Assembly: GCF_009664085.1 (NCBI RefSeq)
Contig: NZ_CP039268.1
Coordinates: 1,163,501-1,227,500, forward strand
Direction: 5' to 3'
DNA: 64,000 nucleotides
Source of the DNA: Thermochromatium tepidum ATCC 43061
Lineage (GTDB): Bacteria > Pseudomonadota > Gammaproteobacteria > Chromatiales > Chromatiaceae
Under the pieces are notes generated by a model. That model was given only the letters and a program-made list of their open reading frames with translations, ran no database searches and was not told the origin of the DNA. Positions within the stretch are counted from its first letter, which is position 1, and each line of letters begins with the position of its first letter. Position numbers and translations under genes: made by a program. Shown here in pieces: positions 34,862-58,790 of this stretch.

Positions 34862-34930
34862 AGACCCTCCGCAAGGAAACCCGCGACTTGAGTCGCGGGA
34901 GGAATGGCGGGTGCGCGAAGCGCGCCATGT

Positions 34931-34945
34931 GGTGTATAATACACC
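34931..34945 (+). promoter_or_regulatory. Palindromic -10-like box ahead of tnpA
   Basis: GGTGTATAATACACC is a 7-bp perfect palindrome around a single A and contains TATAAT. It ends 2 bp before the tnpA ATG, so transcription from it would give an almost leaderless mRNA. The symmetry could also allow transcription outward. No good -35 was seen. Confidence 0.35.
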
Positions 34946-34947
34946 GC

Positions 34948-35361
34948 ATGGTTGACATAGTAACCAACAGGAACTGCGTCTATCAAACGGCATACCATGT
35001 GATCTGGTGTCCGAAGTATCGGCGAGATGTACTGACGGGACTGGTGGCAGAGGAAATGGGGGCGATGCTGGATGCGATTTGCGCGGAGCGCGGCTGGCCG
35101 ATGATCTCCAAAGAGATTCAGCCCGACCACGTTCACCTGTTTGTCAGCATCCCGCCTGCCATTGCTGTGGCCGATGCCGTAAAAATCCTGAAAGGGACAA
35201 CGGCGCGCAAGCTGTTTCAGCGGTTTCCGTGGCTCAAGAACCGCCTTTTGGACGGGCATCTGTGGTCGCCCTCCTACTATGTCGGCACGGCAGGTAACGT
35301 CAGCGCCGAGACGATCCGGCGCTACATCGAACGATCCGAACACGTCACCAAGCGGCGATAA
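34948..35361 (+). CDS. tnpA: IS200/IS605 TnpA Y1 transposase
   Basis: The 137-residue single-strand transposase carries the HUH motif DHVHLF (H61, H63) and the nucleophile Tyr Y126 in IRRYIERS. The N-terminus YQTAYHVIWCPKYRRD is the family signature. It cuts and joins single-stranded element ends folded as hairpins. Length equals that of active members (about 130-155), and it is followed by tnpB after 3 bp. Confidence 0.94.
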   Translation: MVDIVTNRNCVYQTAYHVIWCPKYRRDVLTGLVAEEMGAMLDAICAERGWPMISKEIQPDHVHLFVSIPPAIAVADAVKILKGTTARKLFQRFPWLKNRLLDGHLWSPSYYVGTAGNVSAETIRRYIERSEHVTKRR

Positions 35362-35364
35362 CCC

Positions 35365-36510
35365 ATGCTGCGCACCGCCTCGATTCGCCTGAATGTTCGC
35401 CCGGACCAAGTGGCGGCCTTGGGGGCTCTGCAATCGGCTTATGCCGATGCCTGCAACCGCTTGGTGCCGACGGTGATCGAACATCGCTGCTGGAACCGCG
35501 TGGCGCTGCACCAGTTGGCCTATGCCCGGCTGCGCGAGGAAACACCGCTGGGCTCGCAAATGGTCTGCAACGCCATCTTCTCGGTCTGTAAGTCCTACAA
35601 GGCGCAAAAGGAACTCGGTCGCATCAAGAAGGACGAGCCCGCACCTGTAGTGCACTTCGACCGCGCCAGTGTCCATTTCGACAAGCGAACATACTCCATC
35701 AAAGGGGAGTGCCTGAGTCTCTACACCCTTTCTGGCCGCATCGCCGTCCCGATGGTGCTGGGCGAGCATCAGCGTCGCATCATGGCCTCGGGCAAGGCCA
35801 AAGAAGCCGAGTTGGTTTGTCGCAAGGGTCGCTGGTATTTCAACCTCGTCGTCGAGTCCGACGATGCGGACCCCATTGCATCCAGCCCCGTCATGGGCGT
35901 GGATGTCGGAGAAAACAATCTCGCTGCCACCAGCACGGGCAAGGTATGGGGCGGCGGGCAACTGCGCCACAAGCGCAACTGCCACCTTGCCCTTCGTCGT
36001 CGTTTGCAGTCCAACGGCAGCCAAAGCGCCAAACAGAAGCTGCGGCAGGTCTCTGGCAAAGAGCAGCGACGTGTGACGCACATCAACCACGAAACGAGCA
36101 AAGCGATCGTTGCCGAAGCGCGGCGCATTGGTGCTTCCAAGATCGTGATGGAAGACTTGTGCCATATTCGCGACCGCATCCGGGCTGGCAAGCGCGTGAG
36201 AGCGAGACTGCATCGCTGGGCTTTCCGGCAACTTCAGACCTTTGTCGAATACAAGGCCAAGGCTGCCGGAATCGCGGTCGAATACGTCAATCCGGCCTAC
36301 ACCAGCCAGACGTGTTCTTGCTGCGGGGCGTTGGGTCGGCGCGTCAAGCATCGTTTCGTGTGCGACAAGTGTGGTCTCCGGGCGCACGCCGACTGTAACG
36401 CCAGTCGAAACCTGGCCCGGATTGGTAGCGGCGCCCCGCTGCCAAGGGCGGCTGTAAACACGCCTAATGTTGGGGATGTGGTCAACCATGTTTGCTGTGT
36501 CTCACAATAA
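35365..36510 (+). CDS. tnpB: TnpB RNA-guided nuclease of IS605 element
   Basis: The 381-residue TnpB has a RuvC nuclease with D180 (GVDVGENN), E263 (VMEDL) and D343 (HADCNAS), and a zinc ribbon with two CxxC pairs (CSCCG, CDKCG). TnpB nucleases use an RNA from the element right end to cut the empty donor site next to the TAM, which favours element retention. All catalytic residues are present and the length is typical, so it is probably functional. Its transcript continues toward the 3' end of ntpA, antisense. Confidence 0.93.
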   Translation: MLRTASIRLNVRPDQVAALGALQSAYADACNRLVPTVIEHRCWNRVALHQLAYARLREETPLGSQMVCNAIFSVCKSYKAQKELGRIKKDEPAPVVHFDRASVHFDKRTYSIKGECLSLYTLSGRIAVPMVLGEHQRRIMASGKAKEAELVCRKGRWYFNLVVESDDADPIASSPVMGVDVGENNLAATSTGKVWGGGQLRHKRNCHLALRRRLQSNGSQSAKQKLRQVSGKEQRRVTHINHETSKAIVAEARRIGASKIVMEDLCHIRDRIRAGKRVRARLHRWAFRQLQTFVEYKAKAAGIAVEYVNPAYTSQTCSCCGALGRRVKHRFVCDKCGLRAHADCNASRNLARIGSGAPLPRAAVNTPNVGDVVNHVCCVSQ

Positions 36511-36540
36511 AGCCTTCGACTTCAGTCGAGGGTTGTTTAC
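36400..36540 (+). ncRNA. Predicted omegaRNA (reRNA) scaffold at tnpB 3' end
   Basis: In IS605-type elements the guide RNA scaffold overlaps the 3' end of tnpB and ends at the right boundary, and the guide is the adjoining host DNA. Here the scaffold would end with the stem at 36513-36532 and GTTGTTTAC. The guide would start at 36541 (TGGCGCACTC), next to the ntpA stop. The same 3' 170 bp is retained in the short copy. The 5' boundary is a guess. Confidence 0.45.
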
Positions 36541-54808: not shown

Positions 54809-57232
54809 CAGGGCGGTGCGCAGTCGCAGACTGTTGGTGACGACGAACAGGCTCGACAGGCTCATGGCGCCGGCGGCGAGCATGGGATCGAGCTGCCAGC
54901 CGGTGAAGGGCCAGAACACCCCGGCAGCAAGCGGAATGAGCGCGACGTTGTAGCCATAGGCCCAGACGAAGTTGAGCCGGATGGTGCGCAGGGTGCGGCG
55001 TGCCAGTACCACGGCATCGGCCACAGCGCGCGGGTCGCCGCGCATCAGGACCACGGAGCCGGACTCGATCGCGATGTCGGTCCCGGTACCGATGGCGATG
55101 CCGACATTGGCCTGAGCGAGCGCCGGAGCGTCGTTGATACCGTCGCCGACGAAGGCCACGCACCGCCCTTCGGCTTGCAGACGGGCGATCTCGGCGGACT
55201 TGTCGGCGGGCATGACCTCGGCCAGCACGCGCCTGATGCCAAGCTCGCGCGCGATCGACTCGGCGGTGGGGCGTCCGTCACCAGTCAGCAGGGTGATGTC
55301 CAGGCCCTGTTCGACCAGTCGCTGGATGGCCTCGCGGCTGCCGGATTTGATGGGGTCGGACACGCCCAACACAGCGATCAGCCGGCCGTCGACGGCGACA
55401 TGGATCGGTGTCGCCGTTGAGTTCGAGCGGGTCGTAAGCGCGTTCGCCGGCTCCAGATCTACCCCAAGCTGTTCCATCCAGCGCCGCGCGCCCACGACGA
55501 CCATTTGGCCATCGACCTTTGCTTGAATGCCAAGCCCTGGATGCGCCTCGACCTCACCGGCATCGCTCAGACTCAGGCCACGCGCCCGCGCCGCGGCGAC
55601 GATGGCTGCACCCAGCGGATGCTCAGTGTGCTGCTCGACGGAGGCCGCTAGTGCCAGTGCCGCGTTCTCGTCCAGACCAAAGGCCGTCAGCTCGGTCAAC
55701 GCCGGCCGACCCTCGGTCAAAGTGCCGGTCTTGTCGAACACTACCGTATCGACCCGCGCCAGGGTCGAAAGTGCCGCGCCCTGCCGAAACAGCAGACCCA
55801 GACCGGCCCCGCGCCCAGTGGCGACCAGGATCGCCGTCGGGGTCGCCAGCCCCATGGCGCAGGGACAGGCGATCAGCAGCACGCTGACGGCGGCGACGAA
55901 GGCGTGATTGAGCGCCGGCTCAGGTCCCAGCCACAGCCAGACGCCGAAGGTCAGGACCGCGATCCCGATGACGATCGGCACGAACACCGCCGCGATACGA
56001 TCGGCCAACCGTTGGATCGGCGGCTTACTGGACTGCGCCTCCTGGACCAATTGGACGATACGCGCCAGCACCGAGTCGGCGCCGACATGCGTGGCGCGAT
56101 AGCGGAAGGCGCCGGTCTGGTTGAGCGTGCCGCCGATGACCGCATCCCCCGGCCCCTTGCGCACCGGAACCGGCTCACCGCTGATCATGGACTCATCGAC
56201 ATGGCTTGCGCCCTCGATCAGGAGGCCGTCGACCGGGATGCGCTCACCTGGACGCACTAGCAGCACATCACCCGGAATCACGGCCTCGGACGGGATCTCG
56301 GTCTCGCCCGCGGCGTCGAGCACGCGCGCGGTCGGTGGCTTTCGATCGAGCAGACGCCGGATCGCCTGCGAGGTGCGGCCCTTGGCGATCGCCTCCAGAT
56401 AACGCCCGAACAGGATCAGGGTGACGATGACGGCGGCGGCCTCGAAATAGAGATGTGCCGTCCCGGTGGGGAAGAGCTGGGGTCGTGTCAGGGCCAGCAG
56501 CGAATACCCATAGGCCGCACCACTGCCGAGCATCACCAGGCTGTCCATGCCCGGACTGAGCTGCGCGAACTCCTTTATGCCGCGGTTGAAGAAACGCCGA
56601 CCCGACCAGAACACGACCGGCGTGGCCAACAGCAGTTGCAGCCATTGCCAGACCGTCATGGGCGCCAGCCGTTCCATGAGCTGATGCAATCCGGGCAGCG
56701 ACATCGGCCCCATGCTGAGGAGCAGCAGCGGCAGACTCAGGGCGGCGGCGAACCGCAGATCGCGCTTGAGCCGGTCGAGCTCGCGTGCCTGCCGGGTCTC
56801 GTCGCTCTCCTGCGGCTGATCAGGCAGGCGTGCCTCATAGCCCGCCGCGCGGATGGTCTGGGCAAGGCGCTCGCGGCTCACCGTGGCCGGCAGATAGACG
56901 ACGCTGGCCGACTCGGTGCTCAGGTTGACGTTGGCCTCCAGCACACCCGGCACGGCCCGCAGCCGACGCTCGATGCCCGCCACGCATGAGGCGCATCTCA
57001 ACCCGCCGATGCCAAGACTGATCGATTCGGTCACGGGCACATAGCCGGCCGCGCGCACCGCCTCCAGCAGCTCAGGCACCGAGGTCTGCTCGAAACGCAC
57101 CAGGGCCAGCCCCGAGGCCAGATTGACCTCGGCTGACTCCACGCCAGGATGATTGAGGATGACACGCTCGACCCGTGCCACACAGGAGGCGCAGTTGAGG
57201 CCATCGACACCGATTCGCAATTCTTGGGTCAT
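54794..57232 (-). CDS. copA: Copper-transporting P1B-type ATPase
   Basis: The 812-residue pump exports Cu(I). Two heavy-metal-associated domains (C14/C17 and C80/C83 in GLxCASC) precede eight membrane helices. The ion site is C456-P-C458, the phosphorylated Asp is D500 in DKTGT, and HTEHPLG and GDGINDAP complete the signatures. ATG 57232 gives the family N-terminus, but ATG 57271 (13 codons up) has GGAGGG 3 nt ahead, supplied by the mobile element end. Which start is used is open. No copper regulator is adjacent. Confidence 0.93.
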
Positions 57233-57266
57233 GTGTAGAGATTGATGCTGATTCGACGAGGCAAGT

Positions 57267-57271
57267 TTCAT
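57267..57271 (+). other. TTCAT target abutting the short IS605 derivative
   Basis: This is the same pentanucleotide as at the full-length element. Read on the minus strand it gives ATGAA, the possible upstream start of copA. Confidence 0.6.
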
Positions 57272-57531
57272 AGACCCTCCGCAAGGAAACCCGCGACTTG
57301 AGTCGCGGGAGGAATTGCGGGCGCACGAAGTGCACCATGTGGTGTATAATGCACCGCAAGCGTGGTCTCCGGGCGCACGCAGACTGCAACGCCAGTCGAA
57401 ACCTGGCCCGGATTGGCAGCGGGGCCCCGCTGCCAAGGGCGGCTGTAAACACGCCCAATGTTGGGGATGCGGTCAACCATGTTTGCTGCGTCTCACAATA
57501 AAGCCTTCGACTTCAGTCGAGGGTTGTTTAC
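57272..57531 (+). mobile_element. 260-bp non-autonomous IS605 derivative (MITE-like)
   Basis: The first 86 bp match the left end of the element at 34862 with 6 differences, up to the tnpA start. The sequence then jumps to the last 170 bp of tnpB plus right end, with about 8 differences and no gaps. It keeps the left stems, the palindromic -10-like box (one base changed), the D343 region of tnpB and the right stem. It encodes no transposase, so it would need TnpA in trans. It lies between copA and the cbiET stop. Confidence 0.92.
57391..57531 (+). ncRNA. Possible orphan omegaRNA in the short derivative
   Basis: This segment corresponds to the predicted scaffold of the full element at 36400-36540 and ends at the same GTTGTTTAC boundary. 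The guide would be the following host DNA (CGTGGCGACC), just before the cbiET stop. Expression is not known; the 5' end is a guess. Confidence 0.35.
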
Positions 57532-57545
57532 CGTGGCGACCGCGT

Positions 57546-58790
57546 TCAGCGCGGCTTGACGGCAGTCAGGAGCGTGACCGGCATGGCGGTGCGCCAGCCG
57601 TCGAAGCGCCCGAGCGGGGCGGCGTGCGCGACCGAGATCCGGGTCAGCTCGCCGCCGATACGGGCGCGCAGCTCGACCAGGAAGGCCTCGCTCTGGACCG
57701 TGACCGCGTTGGCCACCAGACGTCCGCCGGGCTTGAGCGCCGACCAACAGCGCTCGGCCAGTCCCGCAACCCTGAGTCCACCACCGATAAAGATGGCGTC
57801 GGGCGGCTCCAAGCCGTCCAGGGCCTCGGGCGCGCGTCCGGCGACCAGGATCAGATCGGGCACCCCGAGTGCCTCGCGATTGCGTTCGATGAGCGTGCAG
57901 CGCCCCGCATCCGACTCGATGGCGATGGCGCGACAGCGCTCGTCGGCACGCATCCACTCGATCCCAATCGAGCCACAGCCGGCGCCCACGTCCCACAGCA
58001 GTTCGCCCGGACTGGGGGCCAGACGCGCCAGGGTCGCGGCGCGCACATCGCGCTTGGTCAACTGGCCGTCGTGTTCATAGGCCGCATCCGGCAGAGCGGT
58101 GCGGCGCGATAAGGGGAGGGTGTCTGGATCGGGCCGACATTCGACCGCGATCAGGTTGAGCGGGTCACACTCGGGGTGGTCCCAGTGGGCGGCCTGACCC
58201 TCGATCCGTCGCTCGGCACTCCCCCCGAGACGCTCCAGCACCGTCAGCCGGCTTGGGCCATAGCCGCGCGCGGTCAGTTGTGCTGCCAGTCGGGCGGGGG
58301 TGGCGCCATCGGCGGACAGCACCAGCAGGCGGGCACCCGTGGCGAGATGGAGATTGACCCGTGCCAGCGGGCGTCCATGCGCCGGGATCACAGTCACGTC
58401 CTGCACGGCCCAGCCGAGCCGCGCTGCCGCCAGCGAGATCGAGGAGGGCGCAGGCAGGATGCAGAGTTCCTCGGGCGGCAGGCGCTGGGCCAGCTGGGCA
58501 CCGATGCCAAACCACATCGGATCGCCGCTGGCGAGAACACAGACCGGCTGACCGCGCCGGGTCAGAAGCTGGTCATAGGCCAGATCGAATGGGGTCGGCC
58601 AGGGGTGACGCTCCTGGCCAGGACGCTCCGGGATGAGCGCCAGATGCCGTGCGCCGCCGAAGAGCAGCCGTGCCTCGGCGATGGCCCGCCGCGCCGGCTC
58701 GCCTAGCCCGGCCAATCCATCCTCGCCAAGGCCGACGATGGTGAGCCAGGGGGAGGTCGTTGAAAACGATGTGTTGGTCATGCCGTTCAT
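57546..58790 (-). CDS. cobL: Precorrin-6Y C5,15-methyltransferase (decarboxylating), CbiET fusion
   Basis: The 414-residue protein joins a CbiE-type tetrapyrrole methylase (about 1-205; [23 protein letters not shown]) and a CbiT-type Rossmann methyltransferase (about 215-414; [16 protein letters not shown]). Together they methylate C5 and C15 and decarboxylate the C12 side chain. ATG 58790 or 58781 may be the start. It is divergent from cobH, with 209 bp between. Confidence 0.93.

Follow-up and report, generated by a model that had tools for sequence, protein, structure and literature searches.

Results

Anatomy of the short element and of its full-length parent

The window, that is, the whole 64,000-nucleotide stretch of DNA that was analysed, carries a full-length IS200/IS605 element with both protein genes and, further downstream, a 260-bp element that resembles only its two extremities. 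The first 87 bases of the short element align with the left end of the full one with 6 mismatches and its last 173 bases align with the right end with 8 mismatches, in both cases with 0 gaps. The short element lacks tnpA as well as tnpB up to codon 335, and it is too short to hold a transposase gene. The original prediction of an internally deleted IS200/IS605 derivative that matches both ends of 34862-36540 gap-free, without tnpA and most of tnpB, is therefore borne out by 87 + 173 aligned bp. The features discussed below are the following.

34862-36540, plus strand: autonomous IS200/IS605 element of full length (the genome has five)
34948-35361, plus strand: tnpA, Y1 (HUH) transposase (Pfam Y1_Tnp, 2.3e-39)
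35365-36510, plus strand: tnpB, RNA-guided nuclease family (Pfam Cas12f1-like_TNB and OrfB_IS605; related to solved TnpB/Cas12f chains in the PDB)
36370-36540, plus strand: omegaRNA part of this element, scoring 174 bits with covariance model R1
57267-57271, plus strand: TTCAT, TnpA target site in the left flank, which would be the TAM once the site is empty (found at 39 of 42 copies and in the unoccupied site of the relatives G140, G124 and G073)
57272-57531, plus strand: short element of the 260-bp class, a non-autonomous IS200/IS605 derivative (PATE/MITE-like), with exact boundaries from the relatives' empty site
57285-57289, plus strand: GGAAA, 5' foot of the left hairpin and candidate left guide (GL), which could pair with TTC of the target
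57290-57309, plus strand: left-end subterminal hairpin CCCGCGAC-TTGA-GTCGCGGG, putative binding site for TnpA, unchanged in almost every copy
57320-57336, plus strand: second left-end stem, GGCGCAC-GAA-GTGCACC, with 6 of 7 pairs standard here and one C-A mismatch
57345-57350, plus strand: TATAAT, possible -10 box of low confidence, 8 nt upstream of the junction and kept in 32 of 36 short copies
57357-57359, plus strand: deletion junction, left ...CACCGCA joined to right AG(C/T)GTGG..., with CA microhomology ('CA' at 57357-57358)
57361-57531, plus strand: complete omegaRNA scaffold with all five helices (163 bits to R1)
57504-57522, plus strand: right-end subterminal hairpin, flanked by TAAAG (57499-57503, candidate GR) and TTTAC (57527-57531, candidate right cleavage site)
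57532-57547, plus strand: predicted guide of this copy, the 16 nt directly 3' of the element, CGTGGCGACCGCGTTC (the right flank differs in all 42 copies)

Several of these assignments are made by analogy. GGAAA is presumably the left guide, as in IS608 and ISDra2, and the same two elements suggest TAAAG as the candidate GR and TTTAC as the candidate right cleavage site. TTCAT is a predicted TAM by comparison with ISDra2-type TnpB, while the right flank is the predicted guide by comparison with TnpB systems. Both end hairpins are near-invariant across copies, and terminator-like hairpins occur on the minus strand at both element ends. An Rfam scan of the 260-bp element returned chance-level matches only, and a sigma-70 promoter scan of the element found no -35/-10 pair, TATAAT having no recognisable -35.

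A family of 42 copies in one genome

The genome, a single contig of 2,958,290 bp, contains five full IS200/IS605 elements, in each of which tnpA and tnpB are intact, along with 36 internally deleted copies and one 117-bp copy. Given 41 related copies elsewhere in the genome, the match at 57272-57531 is not due to chance. The short copies outnumber the full ones 36:5 and form two junction classes of 260 bp (n=16) and 254 bp (n=20), which have a common right breakpoint just 5' of TGTGG and left sides 6 bp apart. The simplest reading is a single founder deletion followed by a 6-bp change; two deletions are the alternative. Identity reaches 98-99% among the five full elements and 96-100% among short copies within a class. 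Orientation is balanced (21:21), and its clustering along the chromosome, tested over the copies, was not significant. Each of the 42 copies has a distinct flank, right flanks included. The element at 57272-57531 would supply not a "second guide RNA", as originally proposed, but one of ~41 guides in the genome.

Some individual copies are unusual. The 117-bp copy (L080, G000:C1:2736944-2737060, minus strand), located at a TTCAT, has both end hairpins and only ~73 bp of the right end, and is thus a natural derivative without most of the omegaRNA. In L075 (G000:C1:452960-453213, minus strand) the left hairpin is now a near-perfect palindrome of ~40 nt (CCGCCATTCCTCCCGCGACTTGAGTCGCGGGAGGAATGGCGG), a change that template switching on single-stranded DNA might have produced. 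L052 (G000:C1:1633540-1633799, minus strand) lies just upstream of a tRNA-like gene (GGGGCTGTAGCTCAGCTGGGAG...), only a few bases away, and its predicted guide therefore enters the tRNA. A different but related element is represented by a single decayed copy (L179, G000:C1:41514-41674, plus strand), in which tnpB is apparently internally deleted and the omegaRNA scores 158 bits.

Target sites and empty sites

TCAT lies directly 5' of the element in 42/42 copies and TTCAT in 39/42, and every copy ends in TTTAC at its 3' end. The site of the copy in the window is empty in the relatives G140, G124 and G073, with an intact target (TTTCAT/CGTGGCGACC). There is no target duplication, as G140 reads CTCGACGGAGCGCGTTTCAT/CGTGGCGACCG where the present genome reads TTCGACGAGGCAAGTTTCAT/element/CGTGGCGACCG. 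At 12 of 14 other sites tested, the flanks joined in silico were contiguous in relatives; the target was intact at base level at three of them (L048, L063 and L055), and elsewhere there are differences in the motif or gaps in the alignment. Other copies and empty-site alleles, whose absence the original prediction had named as a refutation, were thus both found.

As judged from these genome comparisons, the distinct flanks, the targets, the empty sites and the intact donors together show that the short form itself inserted in this lineage, with sites and ends typical of TnpA peel-and-paste transposition. Since the copies lie 3' of TCAT, their sites are all different and the site in the window is empty in relatives, transposition by TnpA in trans is close to certain, and the proposal that the element could be moved in this way gains firm ground from 36 dispersed short copies at TTCAT and five intact TnpA donors.

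In G140 and G124 an extra gene lies between copA and cbiET, and its start codon coincides with the TTTCAT target of the element. The G140 gene encodes a Cache-HAMP sensor (N-terminus MKRAPSSLQG). Here this intervening gene is lost, and a scar of ~40 bp (57232-57271 of the window) remains beside the element.

A whole omegaRNA scaffold is kept at the right end

We derived the fold from 14 right ends of diverged elements belonging to Nitrospirae, Gammaproteobacteria, Deltaproteobacteria, Chlamydiae, Verrucomicrobia and others. It comprises 46 pairs, 29 of which show two-sided changes among the 14 diverged sequences, and the covariation extends beyond the tnpB stop codon, though much of the fold overlaps coding sequence. 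The corresponding covariance model, R1, is matched end to end by 36/36 short copies (163-177 bits, versus 170-174 bits for the full copies and 56 bits for the 117-bp copy); one full element of the present genome went into R1, which by itself accounts in part for the high scores of near-identical copies. The scaffold of the short copies begins at the deletion junction, ~8 nt 5' of the first helix, and this stretch folded alone gives z = -5.2. Covariation and model match thus identify the part kept at the right end as a complete omegaRNA scaffold, and the prediction that the omegaRNA tail had been kept proved right, at 163 bits for the copy in the window. Expression of the omegaRNA and its binding by TnpB are predicted.

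Breakpoints and omegaRNAs in other genomes

The covariance-model search covered twelve genomes, four of the same genus and eight encoding relatives of this TnpB. Each of the latter eight has 1-3 omegaRNAs, most of them adjoining tnpB; G166 has 11 and G103 has one, while zero were found in G140 and G026. None of the twelve genomes searched yielded another large swarm of short copies. Outside this set, a search for the left hairpin in viral contigs gave no exact match, and a plasmid search gave one distant relative only.

Two derivatives in G166 bear on the origin of the junction. One (C1:29487-29729) joins the left end, broken within tnpA at codon ~10, to the common right-end point, and the other (C38, L241) joins tnpB codon ~70 to that same point; both breakpoints fall within a few nt of the right breakpoint of the short copies, a coincidence that was spotted post hoc and to which no probability is attached. 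The recurrence could reflect selection for the whole scaffold or a deletion hotspot linked to hairpins. Convergence on this breakpoint as a general rule was rejected, as a derivative of ~287 bp in G103 breaks ~50 nt further upstream.

G103 also has more than 12 copies of a separate, C-terminal-only TnpB match (e.g. C1:2154200-2154598, 1196563-1196958 and 2985383-2985724), with open frames of ~230 aa, possibly another expanded internal-deletion derivative. At L245 (G166 C86, ~1290-1780) an omegaRNA fragment adjoins repeats resembling a CRISPR array.

Substitutions in the stems and exchange between copies

The original prediction took a G-C to A-T replacement in the second left-end stem as a compensatory change. 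The named pair (pair 6) did change in this way and covaries across the family through the series G-C, G-T, A-T. Three pairs away (pair 3), T-G of the full element became a C-A mismatch here; across the copies this pair runs through T-A, C-G and T-G, with C-A in 2 copies including the one in the window and A-C in one full copy. Reading the stem change as a pointer to selection was therefore overstated, given that another pair is broken in the same copy and that copies exchange sequence.

As to the right end, its variants are mainly C/T on the RNA strand (12 C/T versus 3 G/A, against 15 versus 14 elsewhere; p = 0.10). Such changes are wobble-compatible and keep G-C pairs as G-U. A helix pair is broken at 4/10 right-end variant sites absent from the full copies, meaning that new mutations in short copies disrupt helices at roughly the chance rate, and so purifying selection on the fold is not detectable after the deletion.

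Among short copies, four gametes occur at 70/153 pairs of informative sites. In the full elements (n=5), the ends that they have in common with the short copies vary 2.9-fold more than the tnpA-tnpB body does (p = 0.005). Both observations point to gene conversion between short and full copies. Since exchange between copies keeps the scaffolds alike, inference from single substitutions is weakened.

Discussion

The element described here has no transposase gene, retains both subterminal palindromes and ends, uses a fixed target without duplication, and is multicopy in a genome with resident intact tnpA. We are therefore nearly certain that it is a PATE, formed by internal deletion of a resident element and amplified to ~36 copies by TnpA acting in trans on the retained ends. 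As it keeps the two ends together with the omegaRNA, it very probably jumps with a borrowed transposase.

We favour, at a rough probability of 0.6, a guide-donating PATE that borrows TnpA for its movement and the resident TnpB for its retention. TnpB presumably keeps its transposon in place by cleaving the site that excision leaves behind. By this model, TnpA from the full copies would move the short element via its retained ends, and the guide of each short copy would be the sequence 3' of its insertion. Transcription might begin at the TATAAT that shortly precedes the junction, or come from outside, and TnpB from any of the five full copies would bind the resulting RNA. When TnpA peels the short element out, the rejoined TTCAT and right flank would present the cognate TAM and target; TnpB would cut the rejoined site, and repair from the sister chromosome would restore the element. 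We infer transcription, TnpB loading, cleavage and copy retention alike, and the short element may thus borrow its nuclease.

A bolder version regards the swarm of ~36 nuclease-less copies as minimal selfish guide units that selection has moulded so as to keep the omegaRNA whole. The recurrent right breakpoint (tnpB codon 335-337), seen here and twice in one relative, would then mark the mature omegaRNA 5' end, and competing guides would load the TnpB of the five full copies, sharing retention and parasitising the nuclease supply. We consider this version rather unlikely.

The element could also be an ordinary PATE/MITE moved by TnpA in trans, with the omegaRNA segment as an inactive passenger and the deletion endpoint set by DNA hairpins and microhomology. 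The mobility evidence would be identical, no promoter pair was recognised, the new variants of the short copies disrupt helices at about the expected rate, and the left breakpoint is next to a DNA hairpin and shows CA microhomology. On the other hand, the right end that was kept far exceeds the need of a hairpin and a cleavage site, the scaffold is complete in 36/36 short copies, the one derivative that lacks it occurs as a single copy, and the two G166 derivatives break at the same point. We regard the passenger explanation as a tenable possibility, at appreciably less than even odds. A co-opted host regulatory RNA or terminator cassette, whose hairpins act on neighbouring genes, might account for the terminator-like minus-strand hairpins at both ends and for the fact that some insertions abut start or stop codons, TTCAT containing CAT and TCA. 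No common gene context was seen in the flanks, the copies lie in both orientations (21:21) and the retained segment is the omegaRNA fold, which makes such a cassette very improbable. As for an old inactive relic, or the in-situ deletion of a once-full copy, the locus did decay, since the host gene between copA and cbiET is lost here. Yet 36 near-identical short copies have common junctions in different flanks, the site is empty in relatives, and dispersed copies sharing one junction already refute an origin in situ; the old relic that the original prediction named as a possible refutation was checked on these grounds and does not hold, and we give this explanation practically no weight.

An element reduced to ends plus guide lets the borrowing of TnpB retention be tested, together with the dilution of the nuclease by many guides. 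The genome offers 36 elements with distinct guides and a natural copy without most of the guide RNA, and its relatives have the empty sites.

Guide RNA units without an adjacent nuclease gene, such as Geobacillus PATEs and IscB omegaRNAs, are presumed to use a resident nuclease. Meers et al. reportedly described guide-bearing PATEs in Geobacillus in 2023, and stand-alone IscB omegaRNAs are said to have been described by Altae-Tran et al. in 2021. In the literature searched, no paper treated PATEs as TnpB guide donors; if the Geobacillus PATEs are of this kind, the present element is a further example. What is added here is the covariation evidence for the whole omegaRNA, together with a breakpoint that recurs and short copies that outnumber full ones 36:5.

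PATEs (palindrome-associated transposable elements) are described in Haloquadratum walsbyi, in the passages concerned, as short and transposase-free, with several types in multiple copies (PMC3119063), and a PATE-like single copy in Halanaerobium hydrogeniformans is given as 28 nt of the left end followed by the final 58 nt of tnpB together with 160 nt of the right end (PMC7290912). As far as these passages go, our element resembles PATEs in keeping IS605-type subterminal palindromes and in lacking a target duplication, and some PATEs likewise arose from core deletion. Whereas the same passages leave the guide RNA untreated, here an omegaRNA scaffold is identified by covariation, with the deletion ending at its 5' boundary. 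With ISDra2 (PMC8612924) and AmaTnpB (PMC10278001) the family shares a Y1 TnpA, a TnpB, an omegaRNA overlapping the tnpB 3' end, a right-flank guide and a left-flank target pentamer. Unlike those elements, the short element has neither protein gene, and its omegaRNA would act in trans.
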